Assembly: GCA_021794275.1 (NCBI GenBank) | Contig: JAJYRD010000076.1 | Span: 1-64,000, forward strand | Origin: Pseudomonadota bacterium | GTDB taxonomy: Bacteria; Pseudomonadota; Gammaproteobacteria; Acidiferrobacterales; Acidiferrobacteraceae | Direction: 5' to 3' | Length of the DNA stretch: 64,000 nucleotides | Shown: in pieces, positions 32,740 to 40,382 of the stretch | Position numbering within the stretch: position 1 is the stretch's first letter | Layout: the number at the start of each line of letters is the position of its first letter | Notes under the pieces: generated by a model | What the model was told of the DNA's origin: nothing | The model's database searches: none | The model's input: only the letters and a program-made list of their open reading frames with translations | Program-made: the position numbers and the translations under genes

Positions 32740-34158
32740 ATGGCTGGAAAGTATGAAGCCGGCGTCAAGGAGTACCGCCAGACGTACTGGGCTCCGGACT
32801 ACGTGCCGTTGGACTCGGATATTTTAGCGTGTTTCAAGATCGTGCCGCAGCCCGGTGTTGACCGGGAAGAGGCGGCGGCGGCGGTGGCGGCTGAGTCTTC
32901 CACGGGGACGTGGACGACGGTATGGACGGACCTGCTGACCGATCTCGATTACTACAAGGGTCGCGCGTACCGGATCGAAGACGTTCCGGGCGACGATACC
33001 GCCTTCTACGCCTTCATCGCCTACCCGATCGATTTGTTCGAAGAAGGTTCGGTGGTGAACGTCTTCACCTCCCTCGTCGGTAACGTGTTCGGTTTCAAGG
33101 CGGTGCGTTCGCTCCGTCTGGAAGATGTGCGTTTCCCTCTCCACTATGTCATGACCTGCAACGGTCCGCCGCACGGTATCCAGGTCGAACGTGACAAGAT
33201 GGACAAGTACGGGCGCCCGATGCTCGGCTGCACGATCAAACCCAAGCTTGGCCTGTCGGCAAAGAACTACGGGCGCGCGGTCTATGAGGCCTTGCGCGGC
33301 GGTCTTGATTTCACCAAGGATGACGAGAACGTCAATTCGCAGCCGTTCATGCGCTGGCGCGATCGTTTCCTGTTCGTCGCTGACGCCATCCATAACGCCG
33401 AGGCCCAATCGGGCGAACGTAAGGGGCATTACCTGAACGTTACCGCCCCCTCGCCGGAGGAGATGTACGAGCGTGCCGAGTTCGCGAAGGAACTGAACAT
33501 GCCGATTATCATGCATGACTTCCTTACGGGCGGCTTCTGCGCGAACACCGGGCTCGCGCGCTGGTGCCGCAAGAACGGCGTGCTTCTGCACATCCACCGC
33601 GCCATGCATGCGGTGATCGATCGTAACCCGCACCACGGTATCCATTTCCGCGTGCTCACCAAGGCGCTGCGGCTGTCGGGGGGCGATCACCTCCATACCG
33701 GCACCGTGGTCGGCAAGCTCGAAGGCGACCGCGCCTCGACCCTCGGATGGATCGACCTTCTGCGTGAATCCTATGTTCCGGAAGATCGTAGCCGCGGCAT
33801 TTTCTTTGATCAGGATTGGGGCTCCATGCCGGGCGCCTTCGCGGTTGCTTCGGGTGGTATCCACGTCTGGCACATGCCGGCGCTGGTCAAGATCTTCGGC
33901 GATGACTCGGTTCTGCAGTTCGGTGGCGGCACCCTGGGGCACCCGTGGGGCAATGCGGCGGGCGCGGCGGCCAATCGCGTGGCTCTCGAGGCCTGCGTCG
34001 AGGCCCGTAACCGCGGCGTGGATATCGAGAAAGAAGGGAAGACCATATTGACGAACGCGGCGCGCCATTCGCCCGAGCTCAAGATCGCCTTGGAAACCTG
34101 GAAGGAGATCAAGTTCGAGTTCGACACGGTCGACAAGCTCGACGTCCAGAACCGCTAA
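32740..34158 (+). CDS. cbbL: ribulose-1,5-bisphosphate carboxylase/oxygenase large subunit, form IA
   Basis: The catalytic subunit of Rubisco, which adds CO2 to RuBP inside the carboxysome. At 472 residues it is full length. The start [33 protein letters not shown] is typical of carboxysomal form IA. The active-site block [24 protein letters not shown] carries the carbamylated Lys and the metal ligands (KDDE). [29 protein letters not shown] (loop 6 region with the catalytic Lys) and GGIHVWHMP follow. The ribosome site GAGGAGG is strong. cbbS follows after 39 bp. Confidence 0.99.
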
Positions 34159-34197
34159 TTTTCGGGATCAGACACGTCATTCAGTAAGGAGGTCGCC

Positions 34198-34530
34198 ATG
34201 GCCGATGTGCAAGATTATAAGCAGGCTCGCCGATACGAAACGTTCTCGTATCTTCCCCCGTTCTCTGCGGAGCAGACCCGTGCGCAGATTCAGTACATGA
34301 TCGCGCAGGGCTGGAACCCGGCGGTTGAGCATATAGAGCCCAACCGTCCTTTCACGTACTACTGGTACATGTGGAAGCTGCCGATGTTCGGTGAACGCAA
34401 TGCGGACGCGGTGCTCGCGGAGGTAGAGGCCTGTCGCCGGGAGTATCCGAATCATTCGATCCGTCTGATCGGGTACGACAACTACACCCAGAGCCAAGGG
34501 TTGTCGTTTGTGGTGCACAGGGGTTCCTGA
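34198..34530 (+). CDS. cbbS: Rubisco small subunit, form IA
   Basis: A 110-residue small subunit that caps the L8 core to give L8S8. [54 protein letters not shown] and [23 protein letters not shown] are characteristic of the form IA type packaged in alpha-carboxysomes, where CsoS2 binds at the L-S interface. AAGGAGG precedes the start. Confidence 0.99.
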
Positions 34531-34596
34531 GACGCGATGAGATCAAAGGGCCGGGTCCGCGTATTGGGCGGACCCTGGACCGCATAGGGGGACACT

Positions 34597-37131
34597 ATGT
34601 CTGATTTATCCTCATCCGGGCAACTGCATGGCCGGGCGTTGGCGCAGGAGATGCGGCGGCGTCAGGCCCAGCAGAAGGCGCGCGGACCGGGAAAGGCGGC
34701 TGTCCGGACGCAGCAGGCGAAGCCGGACGCGACCCGGAGGGCCGCATCCGCGCCCGTCGGGCAACAGGTTTTGCCCGAGGCCCAGGCGGCACAGCCCCGT
34801 GGGCGCGAGGCGGCGCGGGCGCGCCGCGCAGCACGTTGTGCTGGGGCCCAGTGCTGGTCGGATCCCAAGGAGCGGGGTGTGAGCACGGTTCCGGATGCGG
34901 CGCCTGCGGCCAAGGATACGGCGTCCGAGAGGCCAATGGAGACCGAAGTCGCGGTTCCGGATCAGGAAGAGGCACTCATGGATTCGGTCTGCGAGGTCGC
35001 AGAGGCCAGCCCCGGAACCTTAGGGTGGCGCGAGACGAGCGTGCGCGCGTTGTGCAAGGCGCGGCGGCGGTCGGTCGCGCAGCGTGGCAAAGTGGCGATC
35101 CCGGTGCGGAACGGCCTTATCTCAGCGGCGGCGCGGCAGCACTATCTCGAGACGGGGAACGCGCGTGAGTTTGCGCGGGCGCACCGTCGCGAACTTGCTG
35201 TACACGGTCGTGGGTCGGCGCAGCCCGCGCGGCCGAGCGGTAAGCGGCGCAAGCACGAAGCACCGCCCAAGGTTGAGCTTGGAACCACCTTGTCTGGGAG
35301 CCCGGTGACGGGGACCCAGGTGGATCGCACGCGTGCGATTACAGGCATCGAGCCGGGGTCCTGTCGGACGATCACGGGCACCGAGTATCTGGGGTCGGAG
35401 CACTACGCAGGGTTCTGTGAGACGCGGCCCGCGCCGCGGCCCGCTAAGGTGCGGGTCGGACGTACAGGGCGTGACCTGGATGTGACCGGGACGCATATGG
35501 GACGCGTGGGTTCGGTCACGGGCGACGAGGCCGGCGCCTGTCGCCCCGTGACTGGGACTGAGTACGTTGGGAGCGATGACTTTCAGGCGACGTGCCAGAC
35601 GGAAGGGCCGGTGCGGGCGCCCAAGGTTGCAGTCGGGCGCACCACGCGTCGCGAGCTTCCGGTGAGTGGGAGCGACGAGGCGCGGGCAAATCGGGTGACG
35701 GGGTCGGAACCCGGTGCTACCGCAAAAGTCACGGGGTCGCAGTACGCGGACGGCGGGGCGGGTCGCATGACGATCAACGGCGCCCCGAAGAAGGTGGCCT
35801 TGACGCATACGATCGGCGGGCGGCCTGTTTCGGGGACTGCGGTGGATCAAACCACCAAGATCACAGGGCTCGATGCAGGCACGTGTCGCACGCTTACGGG
35901 CACCGAGTATCTGAGCCACGAGAGCTTCACGTCGGTCTGCGGGACTCGGCCGCAGCCGACCGAACCGCCGAAGGTCGAGGAAAGTTACACGGAGAAGCGG
36001 CAACGCATCACGGGAAACCTCGTTGACCGATCGGAAAAGGTGACGGGGAACGAGCCGGGTTCGTGCCAGCGATTGACCGGTACCGGTTACAACGGTCCGC
36101 AACTCTGTGGTGGCGGTACCGAGAAGGTGCAGCGCATGACGGGCCTGGGCGGCACGGCGGTGACTGGCACGGGGATGGACCGACTCCCAAAAACGACAGG
36201 TGACGAGCACGGAGGGTGCTGGCCCGTCACCGGAACGGTATATCACGGGCGTGAGCACTACGCCCAATGCGCAAGCACCCCGCAGGCGGGAGCGCGTAAG
36301 GTCGGCCTGACGCGGACCGAAGGGGGCCACCTGGTAAGCGGCCCACTGTTGGGCGCCGATGAGGCTGTGACTGGCAACGAAGCGGGGGTGCATCTGTCCG
36401 TGACAGGCACGCCCTATGCTGGACGCGAGGAATCGGCAGCGAACGGATATGAGGCGGCCATGACAGGAAAAGCCGAAAACGGGACCCGGTCTGCCGGCTG
36501 TAGCGGGAGCTGCGGTTGCAAAGGGCGGTTCGAAGAGCTTGAGAAGCGCGTGCGCGAACTGCAGGCCGAGCTCGGGTCCACCGCGGGCGGCGCTGTGATG
36601 GCGAGCAGCCGGTTCGTGGCGGCGCCTATGCCCGAGGCGCAAGCCGCGCAGGATGCACCGGCGGCCGGTGGTTTTAGCGTGGCGGCCCCGGCGCAAGAAG
36701 GTCGTTCGAGGATCACGGGTAACGCAGCAGAACAGAGCGCACGCATCACGGGACCCATCAACTTGGCGCGCGGCCTTGTCACTGGGACCCCGGAGTTCCG
36801 GGCCCGTGATGGGATTACGCCGAGCGTGCAGGCGATGCCAAAAGTCGCGGCAAGCGAAGCGGGTGGCGAAGCGGCGGCACCGACCCCTGGGGCTTGGCGG
36901 ATCACGGGTGACGATTGGAGTCGCGGCGGTCGCGTGACGGGTACCGAGGGTCATTGGGCGCAAGGACGCAACCCAACGCAGCGGGGTGTGGCGCGCACCT
37001 GCGTCATGTCGGCGGCGGGAAACCGTGAGCGGCCCCTGGCTGTGCCGGTGCCGGAAGGAAGAGTGACAGGTAGCAGTGGCAATACGGGTAAGGGTTCCGT
37101 CGTGACCTACTCGGGCGGAGCGCGGGGATGA
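34597..37131 (+). CDS. csoS2: carboxysome scaffold protein CsoS2 (long form CsoS2B, with -1 frameshift short form)
   Basis: CsoS2 is the disordered scaffold that condenses Rubisco and links it to the shell. The 844 residues show the three regions of the family. The N-terminal region (1-230) is basic with four Rubisco-binding helices (GRALAQEMRRRQAQQKARG; SVRALCKARRRSVAQRGK; AREFARAHRRELAVHGRG). The middle region (about 237-620) has seven repeats of VTGT-x..-VTGxExGxC-x-x-VTGTEYxG, several with the Cys. The C-terminal region has further ITG/VTG motifs for shell attachment and a final conserved WRITGDDWSRGGRVTGTEG. A slippery heptamer and stem-loop at 36186-36231, within the sixth repeat, would give a 535-residue CsoS2A by -1 frameshifting. 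Most Cys in the repeats follow the pattern known to respond to redox. Confidence 0.97.
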   Translation: MSDLSSSGQLHGRALAQEMRRRQAQQKARGPGKAAVRTQQAKPDATRRAASAPVGQQVLPEAQAAQPRGREAARARRAARCAGAQCWSDPKERGVSTVPDAAPAAKDTASERPMETEVAVPDQEEALMDSVCEVAEASPGTLGWRETSVRALCKARRRSVAQRGKVAIPVRNGLISAAARQHYLETGNAREFARAHRRELAVHGRGSAQPARPSGKRRKHEAPPKVELGTTLSGSPVTGTQVDRTRAITGIEPGSCRTITGTEYLGSEHYAGFCETRPAPRPAKVRVGRTGRDLDVTGTHMGRVGSVTGDEAGACRPVTGTEYVGSDDFQATCQTEGPVRAPKVAVGRTTRRELPVSGSDEARANRVTGSEPGATAKVTGSQYADGGAGRMTINGAPKKVALTHTIGGRPVSGTAVDQTTKITGLDAGTCRTLTGTEYLSHESFTSVCGTRPQPTEPPKVEESYTEKRQRITGNLVDRSEKVTGNEPGSCQRLTGTGYNGPQLCGGGTEKVQRMTGLGGTAVTGTGMDRLPKTTGDEHGGCWPVTGTVYHGREHYAQCASTPQAGARKVGLTRTEGGHLVSGPLLGADEAVTGNEAGVHLSVTGTPYAGREESAANGYEAAMTGKAENGTRSAGCSGSCGCKGRFEELEKRVRELQAELGSTAGGAVMASSRFVAAPMPEAQAAQDAPAAGGFSVAAPAQEGRSRITGNAAEQSARITGPINLARGLVTGTPEFRARDGITPSVQAMPKVAASEAGGEAAAPTPGAWRITGDDWSRGGRVTGTEGHWAQGRNPTQRGVARTCVMSAAGNRERPLAVPVPEGRVTGSSGNTGKGSVVTYSGGARG
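36186..36231 (+). promoter_or_regulatory. predicted -1 programmed ribosomal frameshift signal in csoS2
   Basis: The heptamer C CCA AAA (36186-36192) lies in the zero frame as X XXY YYZ. After a 6-nt spacer, GGTGACG (36199-36205) pairs perfectly with CGTCACC (36225-36231), enclosing a second perfect stem AGCAC (36206-36210)/GTGCT (36216-36220). In the -1 frame translation ends at TGA 36201-36203 after Asn-Asp-Arg, giving a 535-residue CsoS2A. Frameshifting that makes CsoS2A and CsoS2B is known in Halothiobacillus neapolitanus; the site here is read from the sequence. Confidence 0.85.
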
Positions 37132-37185
37132 TCTCGCGGGATCCGGCAGCGGTGGTCGCGCGTCGCGGCCACGGGGGCTAGACCT

Positions 37186-38760
37186 ATGGATACGCGCAAA
37201 TCAGCGACACTGCGCCGCGCGCGGCATGGCGGGGACGGCGCGGGGGCGCCCATGGGAAGTATGGCGCGGGCCCGGTCACGGATGGCGTGGCCCCGCTCGG
37301 GCGCGATGCGCGCGGAAGCCTTAGGGTTGGCGCATCCGGCGTGCGACACCTTGCCGGACCGGTCGTGTCGACATGCGCTTGTGGATCGGACGGAGAACGC
37401 CCGGCTGTTCGAATGCGAGCAGGAAACCAAGGCGCGGTTCGATGGAATCGTACCGACGCTCCAGGAGATCGCGGCCCTTGGGCGAGGGAGGGATTTCACG
37501 GAGCGCGCGCAGGCGACGGCCCGCGAGCGCCTCGGGTTCGAGTTGCCGATGTCAGTGCTGGATCGGGCTTGGGTGCGCGGTGCCGACATGGGCGCCTTAT
37601 ATGCGCACGGGGTGTTCCAGGCACTGTCTTTGGCGGTGGCGCGGTTTTCGGGTCGGGTTCGCGAGGAACTCGCAGCCGGTCAGAGCTGGGATGGTTTGTT
37701 GGTGGATTGCGGATTTCACGCCATGAACGTCTCAGCCTGCGCGGACGGGCGCTTAAAGGGCCTTTTCCCGTACATTTTGCGCATGCCGGCATCGGCCCTG
37801 GTGCGTCGCAGCGCCTTTGCTGGCACGTTGTTTGATGTGGAAGAGGATGTGCGGCATTGGGAGCATAGCGAGCTTCGGCGGTTCCGGGAGGGTTTCCCGA
37901 CCACGGCCGGCGCGCAGACCCGCTATCTTAAGGTGGCCGTGTATCACGGCAGTTCGGTCGATCCGACGCATCAAGGCTGCGCGGCCCATGGGAGCAACGA
38001 GCGGGCGGCGACCGAGGCGGCCTTGGAGCGCCTGAATGAGTTCCGCGGTGCCATAGAGAATGAATTTTGTTGCGGGGCCGGGACCGACATACTGCTCATC
38101 GGGGTCGACACGGACACGGACGCGATCCGTATCCATGTCCCTGACGCGAATGGGGATGTGAGCGCATATCGCTATATCGATAACGCGGACTTGTACCGTC
38201 GCACGCTTGGCTTGGAGGCGGATCGGGCACGGCTTGCGGTGTATGAGGCGATCCAGGGCGCGAGCACCACGGATGGCTGGGGTAAGGGTGAGGGCATGCC
38301 GCATGATGGCATGCGCAGGCTTATCGCGACCTTGCTCATAAACAACATGAGCCAGATCGAGTATGTGGCCGAGTATCACGGCGGTTGGTATGGAGACAAC
38401 GGTCACGGTGAACGTTTTGTGAGCGTGGGAGACGGGTTCCCGGAAGTGCAGGTCCGAAATATCGCTTACTACGCGCGCCTCGATACAGTCGAGGAGGGAG
38501 CGGCGGATCTCGATGTTGGGGTGAAGATATTCCGGCACCTGAATGTAGAGCGTGGTTTGCCGATCCCGGTGGCGCTGCACTACCATTTCGACGCGAGGGT
38601 GCCTGGGAGCCGCGGGCGCGTGGAAGGAAAAATTCGGCGCGTGGCCGAGGCGATACGCGCGCGTTATGCGCGCTTGGCGGAGGATGGGCTTTTGTATCTG
38701 CACGGAAGCATTCAGGATCTGCCGCCGGGAAGTGCTTTGGAGGAGGTTTTGCTCAAATGA
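37186..38760 (+). CDS. csoSCA: carboxysomal carbonic anhydrase CsoSCA (CsoS3)
   Basis: CsoSCA, a diverged beta-class carbonic anhydrase, converts bicarbonate to CO2 inside the carboxysome. The 524 residues comprise a basic disordered N-terminus (about 45 residues; RRARHGG, ARARSRMAW) that in H. neapolitanus anchors the enzyme to Rubisco, a helical domain, the catalytic domain with the CADGR motif (Cys185 zinc ligand, Asp187-Arg189 dyad) and later the zinc-site histidine and cysteine (HQGCAAHGSN, FCCGAG), and a C-terminal domain that has lost its own active site. The stop overlaps the csoS4A ATG by 4 bp. The ribosome site is weak (GGGGGC), and it lies 54 bp after csoS2. Confidence 0.97.
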   Translation: MDTRKSATLRRARHGGDGAGAPMGSMARARSRMAWPRSGAMRAEALGLAHPACDTLPDRSCRHALVDRTENARLFECEQETKARFDGIVPTLQEIAALGRGRDFTERAQATARERLGFELPMSVLDRAWVRGADMGALYAHGVFQALSLAVARFSGRVREELAAGQSWDGLLVDCGFHAMNVSACADGRLKGLFPYILRMPASALVRRSAFAGTLFDVEEDVRHWEHSELRRFREGFPTTAGAQTRYLKVAVYHGSSVDPTHQGCAAHGSNERAATEAALERLNEFRGAIENEFCCGAGTDILLIGVDTDTDAIRIHVPDANGDVSAYRYIDNADLYRRTLGLEADRARLAVYEAIQGASTTDGWGKGEGMPHDGMRRLIATLLINNMSQIEYVAEYHGGWYGDNGHGERFVSVGDGFPEVQVRNIAYYARLDTVEEGAADLDVGVKIFRHLNVERGLPIPVALHYHFDARVPGSRGRVEGKIRRVAEAIRARYARLAEDGLLYLHGSIQDLPPGSALEEVLLK

Positions 38761-39008
38761 AGATCATGCGGGTGGAGAAGACGCTGGTGTCCACCAACCG
38801 CATCGGGGAGATGGGACATAGGCCATTGCTGGTCGTGCAGGAAAAGGAGGGCGGTCCGCGGTCGGTGGCGGTGGACGCGGTGGGGTGCATCCCAGGGGAT
38901 TGGGTGATATGCGTGGGGTCGTCGGCGGCGCGCGAGGCGGCTGGCAGCAAGGAGTACCCCTCCGATCTCACCATCGTCGGGATCATCGACAACTGGAGCC
39001 CCGAGTGA
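38757..39008 (+). CDS. csoS4A: carboxysome vertex protein CsoS4A
   Basis: An 83-residue bacterial microcompartment vertex (BMV) protein. MRVEKTLVSTNRIGEMGHRPLLVVQE and AVDAVGCIPGDWVICVGSSAARE are the family hallmarks. Five copies form a pentamer that closes the twelve corners of the icosahedral shell. It overlaps csoSCA and is one base from csoS4B. Confidence 0.97.
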   Translation: MKIMRVEKTLVSTNRIGEMGHRPLLVVQEKEGGPRSVAVDAVGCIPGDWVICVGSSAAREAAGSKEYPSDLTIVGIIDNWSPE

Positions 39009-39009
39009 G

Positions 39010-39255
39010 ATGGAGATTATGCGCGTGGTCTCGGATTTGGTGGTGACCCGGCGCGGGCCCGGCCTGAAGCAGAGTTCTTTGCGGGTGCTCGAGGACAGCT
39101 TGGGGAAGTTGAACGTGGCCACCGATCCCGTGGGGGCGCCCCCGGGTAAATGGGTCTTTACGGTATCGGGGTCGGCGGCGCGGTACGCGCAAGGGGATTT
39201 CGAGGTCCATACCGACCTCACTATCGGGGGGATCATCGATTTTTGGGAGCCGTAA
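39010..39255 (+). CDS. csoS4B: carboxysome vertex protein CsoS4B
   Basis: An 81-residue paralogue of CsoS4A (MEIMRVVSDLVVTRRGPGLKQSSLRVLED; PPGKWVFTVSGSAARYAQG; DLTIGGIIDFWEP). Both vertex proteins are usually kept as a pair, with different roles in sealing the shell. It starts one base after the csoS4A stop. Confidence 0.97.
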   Translation: MEIMRVVSDLVVTRRGPGLKQSSLRVLEDSLGKLNVATDPVGAPPGKWVFTVSGSAARYAQGDFEVHTDLTIGGIIDFWEP

Positions 39256-39293
39256 GGCGGGTGTTTGGCTAGGGTTTGTATGGAGGGATGGAA

Positions 39294-39590
39294 ATGGCAG
39301 ATGTGACGGGTATTGCATTGGGCATGATCGAGACGCGCGGCTTGGTGCCGGCCATCGAGGCGGCGGACGCCATGAGCAAGGCGGCGGAAGTGCGTCTCAT
39401 CGGCCGCCAGTTCGTGGGCGGCGGCTACGTGACGGTGTTGGTGCGGGGCGAGACAGGTGCCGTGAACGCCGCGGTGCGTGCCGGCGCTGACGCCTGCGAG
39501 CGGGTGGGAGATGGCCTCGTGGCGGCCCACATCATCGCGCGCGTCCACTCCGAGGTGGAGCATATCCTGCCCAAGGCCCCGAGCGCCTAA
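39294..39590 (+). CDS. csoS1: major carboxysome shell hexamer CsoS1 (copy 1)
   Basis: A 98-residue BMC-domain protein that forms the hexameric tiles of the shell. MADVTGIALGMIETRG, ASIE-like AAEVRLIGRQFVGGGYVTVLVRGETGAVNAAVRAG and HIIARVHSEVEHILP are typical. The FVGGG segment lines the central pore through which bicarbonate enters. The start at 39294 follows GGAGGG. It differs from copy 2 by only a few residues (Val/Ser at position 5, Ser/Thr in AMSKA/AMTKA). Which of the three is CsoS1A, B or C cannot be decided from sequence alone. Confidence 0.97.
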   Translation: MADVTGIALGMIETRGLVPAIEAADAMSKAAEVRLIGRQFVGGGYVTVLVRGETGAVNAAVRAGADACERVGDGLVAAHIIARVHSEVEHILPKAPSA

Positions 39591-39642
39591 GGGCGTCGCG
39601 GTCCGGGCTTTTAATGGCGTTTAGTTGAAGGAGATTCGGAAA

Positions 39643-39939
39643 ATGGCAGATGTATCGGGTATAGCATTGGGCATGATCGAGACGCGCGGCCTAGTGCCGG
39701 CGATCGAGGCGGCGGACGCCATGACCAAGGCGGCGGAAGTGCGTCTCATCGGCCGCCAGTTCGTGGGCGGCGGCTACGTGACGGTGTTGGTGCGGGGCGA
39801 GACAGGTGCCGTGAACGCCGCGGTGCGTGCCGGCGCTGACGCCTGCGAGCGGGTGGGAGATGGCCTCGTGGCGGCCCACATCATCGCGCGCGTCCACTCC
39901 GAGGTGGAGCATATCCTGCCGAAGGCCCCGAGCGCCTAA
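39643..39939 (+). CDS. csoS1: major carboxysome shell hexamer CsoS1 (copy 2)
   Basis: A 98-residue BMC protein, almost identical to copy 1 over the whole length and to copy 3 up to residue 91. The start is fixed by AAGGAG eight bases upstream. A 52-bp spacer separates it from copy 1 and carries its own ribosome site, which allows high expression of each gene. Confidence 0.97.
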   Translation: MADVSGIALGMIETRGLVPAIEAADAMTKAAEVRLIGRQFVGGGYVTVLVRGETGAVNAAVRAGADACERVGDGLVAAHIIARVHSEVEHILPKAPSA

Positions 39940-40046
39940 AGGGGCTCGAGGTGGCTTGGCAGGTGGCGTCGCGCACCTCCAGGCCGCGGTGACGGGATAT
40001 CGAGACAGTTAATGCGGATGGTTCGAGACCTTCGAGGAGAAAAGGA

Positions 40047-40382
40047 ATGGCGCTGACGGGTATAGCATTGGGCATGATCGAGACGCGCGGCCTAGTGCCG
40101 GCGATCGAGGCGGCGGACGCCATGACCAAGGCGGCGGAAGTGCGTCTCATCGGCCGCCAGTTCGTGGGCGGCGGCTACGTGACGGTGTTGGTGCGGGGCG
40201 AGACAGGTGCCGTGAACGCCGCGGTGCGTGCCGGCGCTGACGCCTGCGAGCGGGTGGGAGATGGCCTCGTGGCGGCCCACATCATCGCGCGCGTCCACTC
40301 CGAGGTGGAAAACATCCTGCCAAAGCGCCCCGACGGCAACGGTGGCGGACGTGACGGCGACGTTACCGGGAACTTGAGCTGA
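40047..40382 (+). CDS. csoS1: major carboxysome shell hexamer CsoS1 (copy 3, extended C-terminus)
   Basis: A 111-residue BMC protein. Residues 1-91 are nearly identical to copy 2, then the sequence diverges into PKRPDGNGGGRDGDVTGNLS, a 13-residue longer, Gly-rich tail. H. neapolitanus CsoS1B also carries a longer C-terminus, so this is the likely CsoS1B counterpart. The tail contains VTGN, echoing the ITGN/VTGT motifs of CsoS2; this resemblance may be chance. GAGGAGAAAAGG precedes the start. Confidence 0.95.
   Translation: MALTGIALGMIETRGLVPAIEAADAMTKAAEVRLIGRQFVGGGYVTVLVRGETGAVNAAVRAGADACERVGDGLVAAHIIARVHSEVENILPKRPDGNGGGRDGDVTGNLS

Follow-up and report, generated by a model that had tools for sequence, protein, structure and literature searches.

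A predicted -1 ribosomal frameshift element conserved in the alpha-carboxysome gene csoS2

Introduction

Does the csoS2 gene found in a 64,000-nucleotide stretch of bacterial DNA (the window) specify one protein or two? A -1 frameshift element in csoS2 of Halothiobacillus neapolitanus was reportedly described by Chaijarasphong et al. (2016, J Mol Biol 428:153). According to the accessible part of PMC5009743, CsoS2A of this species is 570 aa long and takes its last three residues from the -1 frame, the frameshift has an efficiency of 50%, and 79 of 162 species were predicted to shift. Excerpts of PMC11365436 and PMC11481516 place the frameshift in the sixth M-repeat. An initial annotation of the window, made from the DNA letters alone, proposed that its csoS2 carries a complete -1 frameshift signal, possibly of a distinct version.

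The csoS2 gene of the window and its putative slip signal

The csoS2 product matched Pfam CsoS2_M (PF12288) with E=6.4e-146, and Pfam matches placed a gene for the Rubisco large subunit upstream and the CsoSCA gene downstream. The putative slip site lies in the sixth M-repeat of this alpha-carboxysome gene, with the M-repeat number counted by eye. The heptamer at the homologous Pro-Lys codons is in phase (CTC CCA AAA); the first base of CCCAAAA is a third codon base, as X_XXY_YYZ demands. After a slip, the -1 frame would read CCC AAA AAC GAC AGG TGA, that is, P531 and K532 followed by Asn-Asp-Arg and a stop. Direct reading confirmed to the base the heptamer, phase, 6-nt gap, 7-bp stem and three-codon stop given in the initial annotation (Table 1). 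Its 535-residue CsoS2A, ending in the sixth M-repeat and lacking the C-terminal domain, is supported as a prediction by reading and homology. An Rfam search of window positions 34000 to 38000 matched no family at E up to 1. Behind csoSCA, positions 38757 to 40382 hold two small genes followed by three tandem, almost identical genes for csoS1-like shell proteins, all named by eye.

Table 1. Coordinates of csoS2 and of the known and candidate parts of its predicted slip signal in the window
Feature	Position	Strand	Basis
csoS2; full-length product CsoS2B, 844 aa, zero frame	34597..37131	+	Pfam CsoS2_M; homology to CsoS2B chains 8b12 and 9ly8
Predicted CsoS2A, 535 aa; zero frame through K532, then -1 frame N-D-R and TGA	34597..36203	+	Read from sequence; script listing of -1 stops
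Slippery heptamer C CCA AAA, in phase	36186..36192	+	Sequence; homologous CCCAAAR present in 45 csoS2 genes
Spacer ACGACA, 6 nt; same length in 44 site-bearing genes with the stem	36193..36198	+	Sequence comparison
Outer stem, 5' arm GGTGACG; holds the -1 stop	36199..36205	+	Sequence, pairing counts, covariation
-1-frame TGA stop, within the 5' arm of the outer stem	36201..36203	+	Script listing of -1 stops
Outer stem, 3' arm CGTCACC	36225..36231	+	Sequence, pairing counts, covariation
Nested 5-bp hairpin AGCAC/GTGCT; best single-sequence fold, little covariation support	36206..36220	+	Minimum-energy fold; covariation test
Conserved inner helix G36207-C36223 and C36208-G36222, behind an A.C mismatch; holds most compensatory changes	36207..36223	+	Covariation
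Possible second hairpin GGGCGT/ACGCCC, 7-nt loop; candidate	36247..36265	+	Seen in the genus and nearest kin only

Relation to the Halothiobacillus neapolitanus site

The window peptide LPKTTGDEHGGCWPVTG aligned with APKMSGDERGGCMPVTG of CsoS2B, at the same protein position. Around its site, the 869-aa CsoS2B chain (PDB 9ly8; 8b12) has a 20-residue peptide that was also present in two genes of our comparison set, L154 and L156, and the residue before it agreed with L156 (VSG), not with L154 (ISG). L156, which is from H. neapolitanus, reads CCCAAAG ATGTCC GGTGACG...CGTCACC, with a stop after three -1 codons. A slip after K567 of the 869-aa protein would yield 570 residues, the CsoS2A length reported in the accessible part of PMC5009743. 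The shared position, the shared DNA parts and this agreement in length together indicate that the window site is orthologous to that of H. neapolitanus, and the claim of a complete -1 frameshift signal is thus supported by homology to a proven one.

The two sites have in common the gene, the sixth M-repeat, the Pro-Lys codons and a -1 stop inside the stem. The heptamer ends in A (CCCAAAA) in the window and in G (CCCAAAG) in H. neapolitanus, the outer stem is 7 bp in the former whereas 9 bp are possible in the latter, and the -1 tripeptide is NDR versus DVR; a few of the window's relatives end in NHR instead. The second-hairpin candidate, unlike the rest, is confined to the neighborhood of the window's genus. 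Identical 7-nt stem arms, the same 6-nt spacer and the same three-codon stop in H. neapolitanus speak against the suggestion of a distinct version.

The A_AAA_AAG slip of Escherichia coli dnaX is in part general background to a further comparison. dnaX is an unrelated gene with an unrelated stem; it resembles csoS2 in its -1 slip, A-site tRNA-Lys, 3' stem-loop and shorter product (PMC5009743, accessible part). In contrast to dnaX, csoS2 apparently has no 5' Shine-Dalgarno stimulator, as stated in the same part of PMC5009743. A GGGG 11 nt upstream of the window site was considered as such a stimulator and rejected, as by eye it is not kept in H. neapolitanus.

Conservation of the element across csoS2 genes

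How often such a combination arises by chance was estimated on the window gene by shuffling synonymous codons. In 54 of 5,000 shuffles (~1%), the full combination appeared: an in-phase heptamer whose second triplet consists of A or T, a perfect stem of 7 bp separated from it by 5-9 nt, and a -1 stop no more than 10 codons away. The 48-nt fold of the window element had a z-score of -1.59, and 14 of 200 shuffles were equally stable. Taken by itself, the window gene is moderate evidence above chance; the cross-species comparison is decisive.

For that comparison, csoS2 was found in 20 of 57 genomes of the window's order, in 72 of 369 sampled genomes of its class (with further stretches added) and in 2 of 398 sampled genomes of its phylum, the window counted in. 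It was also found in 17 of 27 genomes of a family reached through L079, a Halothiobacillus record, and in six of seven genomes that named loci came from; a scan with CbbL contributed its best 80 named loci. The resulting 207 loci, a non-random sample, gave 129 non-redundant csoS2 reading frames, some of them incomplete. A site had to show CCCAAAR in phase, closely followed by a [TS]G[DE] motif, and to reach a -1 stop within four codons; 46 genes qualified. One of these, L124, was removed for having its heptamer elsewhere (residue 236) and no stem. The element was therefore scored as present in 45 genes, among them L035 despite its missing stem, and 84 genes were without a site.

The heptamer and the -1 stop are partly conditioned by this selection; the stem and the other codons are not. 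The 6-nt spacer and a -1 stop after three codons were kept in 44 of the 45 genes; in L035 the stop comes after four codons, the most that the selection permitted. The comparison of heptamer and stem across related genes bore the signal out, with the outer stem pairing at 7/7 positions in 44 of 45 site-bearing genes, compensatory changes included (L179 has one U-G pair).

One alternative is that the stem is a by-product of coding for the repeat (T-G-D-E ... P-V-T-G), that the heptamer is there by chance and that no frameshift occurs. Similar motifs are indeed found throughout the M-repeats, and where a csoS2 gene has no site, its repeats still pair 7/7 in 22 of 626 cases; the ~1% of synonymous shuffles with the full combination also fits this explanation. 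It is largely refuted by the other repeats of the site-bearing genes, where the same arms pair 7/7 in 2 of 410 cases versus 44 of 45 at the site; within the window csoS2, the next best repeats reach 5/7 pairs.

Codon choice points in the same direction. Among 34 distinct elements, GGT is used at the site in 33/34 (26% elsewhere in the same genes), GTC in 33/33 (32% elsewhere), GGG in 27/31 (16% elsewhere) and CCC in 24/26 (22% elsewhere). The CCA and AAR columns of this test are conditioned by the selection, relatedness inflates its P values, and shared descent inflates codon counts and covariation counts alike. Across 20 hand-chosen diverse genes, the 15-codon window starting at CCA had the lowest synonymous difference of all (0.20 vs 0.56 overall; rank 1 of 425). 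Among 13 genes of the window's genus, the value was 0.12 at the site versus 0.44 for the whole gene (rank 6 of 722), and the five better-ranked windows overlap the site window, starting 3 to 10 codons further on. Codons are thus fixed where the protein leaves them free to vary. Together with the repeat counts above, this leads us to reject a stem that follows from repeat coding, an explanation that we consider very unlikely.

Structure of the downstream RNA

The RNA structure 3' of the heptamer is correctly spaced, conserved and covarying. The initial annotation had placed a second, perfect 5-bp hairpin within the outer stem. This hairpin is indeed present in the minimum-energy fold, where AGCAC (36206-36210) pairs with GTGCT (36216-36220), but compensatory changes hardly support it. 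With the nested hairpin, 87.5% of cells are paired over the whole fold, a value reached by 119 of 500 shuffles, and 71.8% over its inner helix (34 distinct elements); its covariation score was reached by 72 of 500 shuffles and its three pairs changed on both sides by 23 of 500. It was set aside as the conserved inner structure on the strength of its inner pairing and of the shuffles that match the whole percentage.

The outer stem combined with the A.C mismatch and the GC/GC helix has 97.1% of cells paired among the same 34 elements, and the best slid control reached 55.2%. None of 500 shuffles equaled this fold in percentage paired or covariation score. Changes on both sides affect three pairs (reached by 1 of 500 shuffles) and eight cells (0 of 500). 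In the window, the two folds are nearly equal in energy, at -18.4 kcal/mol for the nested hairpin with a 4-nt bulge and -18.0 kcal/mol for the best fold listed that contains the conserved GC/GC pairs, a gap of 0.4; the consensus fold with all 13 pairs is weaker (-15.2 kcal/mol). The pattern of substitutions makes the GC/GC pairs the more likely conserved inner helix, with the 5-bp hairpin as a local alternative.

The second hairpin was rejected as part of the general csoS2 element. Near sequences (17 rows, 14 distinct, L004 included) have 76 of 84 cells paired; 26 distinct far sequences have 73 of 156, below the slid control of 93 of 156. Its loop holds AGCAC, complementary to GTGCT of the first hairpin. 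By eye, the letters for such a pairing with the first hairpin are not kept in H. neapolitanus. In L032, L174 and L175, the outer stem can be extended to ~10 bp (GGTGACGAGG/CCTCGTCACC), and one inner pair is changed from C-G to G-C.

Loss of the site in one relative

Loss in close relatives, which the initial annotation had named as evidence against the signal, was seen in L004 only. This gene belongs to the window's genus and comes from an assembly (G011) that is 85% complete. It reads CTC CCG CAA ACC at the site, the heptamer being lost; its reading frame stays open. In the stem, G.G stands at the outermost position, and the second hairpin has lost one of its pairs. The site is kept in the other 13 genes of the genus, the window included, and in L014 of a sister genus. 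L004 could be taken as a hint that the element of the window is a relic, inherited and no longer used in the source organism, given the loss of heptamer and pairs within the same genus. Against this stand the heptamer, stem and stop retained in the 13 other genes and their low synonymous difference (see above), and we regard a relic as highly improbable. As one case among 14 genes of the genus, L004 is better understood as a lineage that has abandoned the short form, and it should be a natural case of a bacterium making only the long form, CsoS2B. The signal is thus dispensable in at least one lineage.

Predicted production of two CsoS2 forms

We conclude that the predicted signal is real and well conserved, and that it is an ordinary member of the known csoS2 frameshift family, not a new type. 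The comparative evidence makes the window site, in all likelihood, a conserved -1 programmed ribosomal frameshift element of alpha-carboxysome csoS2, and the bacterium very probably makes both a long and a short form of CsoS2. For the source organism, we infer that slippage occurs, how efficient it is and what the short form does. The ribosome would reach the outer stem while decoding Pro-CCA and Lys-AAA, and both tRNAs could re-pair one base back, on CCC and AAA. A fraction of ribosomes would then add Asn-Asp-Arg and stop at the UGA in the unwound stem, releasing CsoS2A, and the remaining ribosomes would continue to the end of CsoS2B. The short form would retain most M-repeats and the N-terminus that binds Rubisco, and would lack the C-terminus that anchors the protein to the shell.

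A short form arising from polymerase slippage on the A-run is scarcely credible: the window has five consecutive A (36189-36193), but polymerase slippage is expected to need longer runs, the H. neapolitanus homolog has only AAAG, and the conserved stem would be left unexplained.

The proven csoS2 frameshift is hereby extended, by prediction, to the source bacterium and its genus. Evolution appears to hold fixed the heptamer, the spacer, the outer stem, the inner GC/GC helix and some of the GGG and CCC codons. These fixed parts bear on how H. neapolitanus reaches the equal amounts of CsoS2A and CsoS2B that are reported in the available excerpt of PMC11365436.

Lysine tRNAs and the last base of the heptamer

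The last heptamer base is A in 28 and G in 17 of the 45 sites. We searched the corresponding genomes for tRNA-Lys by anticodon-arm patterns and called a genome assayable if any Lys tRNA was found. Strict patterns gave no tRNA-Lys(UUU) for 13 of the 46 genomes; the absence of tRNA-Lys(CUU) was therefore scored only where some Lys tRNA was detected. The counts consequently leave out two CCCAAAA and nine CCCAAAG genomes, H. neapolitanus among the nine. A tRNA-Lys(CUU) was detected in 23 of the 26 CCCAAAA genomes that were assayable (a set that includes the genome of the stemless L035) and in none of the eight assayable CCCAAAG genomes, five of which belong to one family. The three CCCAAAA genomes without tRNA-Lys(CUU) are G008 and G009, both incomplete, and G334, which is 99% complete. 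A relaxed pattern gave no extra Lys tRNA among the matches listed (18 genomes were listed separately). Some tRNA-Lys is essential in every cell, and two single-contig genomes, G440 (H. neapolitanus; 38 of 38 tRNA matches read) and G429 (39 of 40 read), had no Lys tRNA among the matches read, presumably masked or missed; claims of tRNA absence therefore need care.

Codon bias runs in the opposite direction: in genes with CCCAAAA, lysine is otherwise encoded by AAG in 84% of cases. We give an even chance to the reading that the final base of the slip site is adapted to the lysine tRNAs of the host: where tRNA-Lys(CUU) is present, the heptamer would have to be CCCAAAA, against the AAG bias, and CCCAAAG would occur only where tRNA-Lys(UUU) is the sole reader. 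tRNA-Lys(CUU) reads AAG and would re-pair poorly on AAA.

On a tree of 42 CsoS2 proteins, from which L014, L035, L155 and L124 were left out, the last heptamer base needs five changes. A test of independent pairs used 33 of the 42 rows, among which the heptamer base changes four times and the tRNA state seven times. On supported branches, 3 of 3 independent pairs agree, too few for significance, which would take six or more.

The direction of the trend agrees with the known idea that slippage on AAG is weakened when a second lysine tRNA is present (PMC5009743, accessible part); by the same account, E. coli has a single tRNA-Lys. Insertion sequences depart from a strict rule of this kind: according to the part of PMC4066793 available, A_AA.G motifs are still in use in 46 of 83 species that have both lysine tRNAs. 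A single, limited literature search on carboxysomes, ribosomal frameshifting and tRNA-Lys found no paper, and the link between lysine tRNAs and the last heptamer base may be new. If true, csoS2 would offer a natural comparison by which the tandem-slip mechanism could be tested, and a stricter one than insertion sequences provide. This link and the natural loss in L004 could help to find out under which conditions both isoforms are required.

Variant sites in other csoS2 genes

The Ferrovum myxofaciens gene (L035) has an in-phase CCCAAAA at the homologous place; its stem is gone, and this site may be decaying. In four genes without CCCAAAR at the usual site (L121, L123, L124 and L131), the heptamer A AAT TTT occurs in phase between residues 526 and 556 of the open frame. 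A -1 stop comes three codons later, and a strong 3' stem is absent. This heptamer may be another slip site or a chance occurrence.
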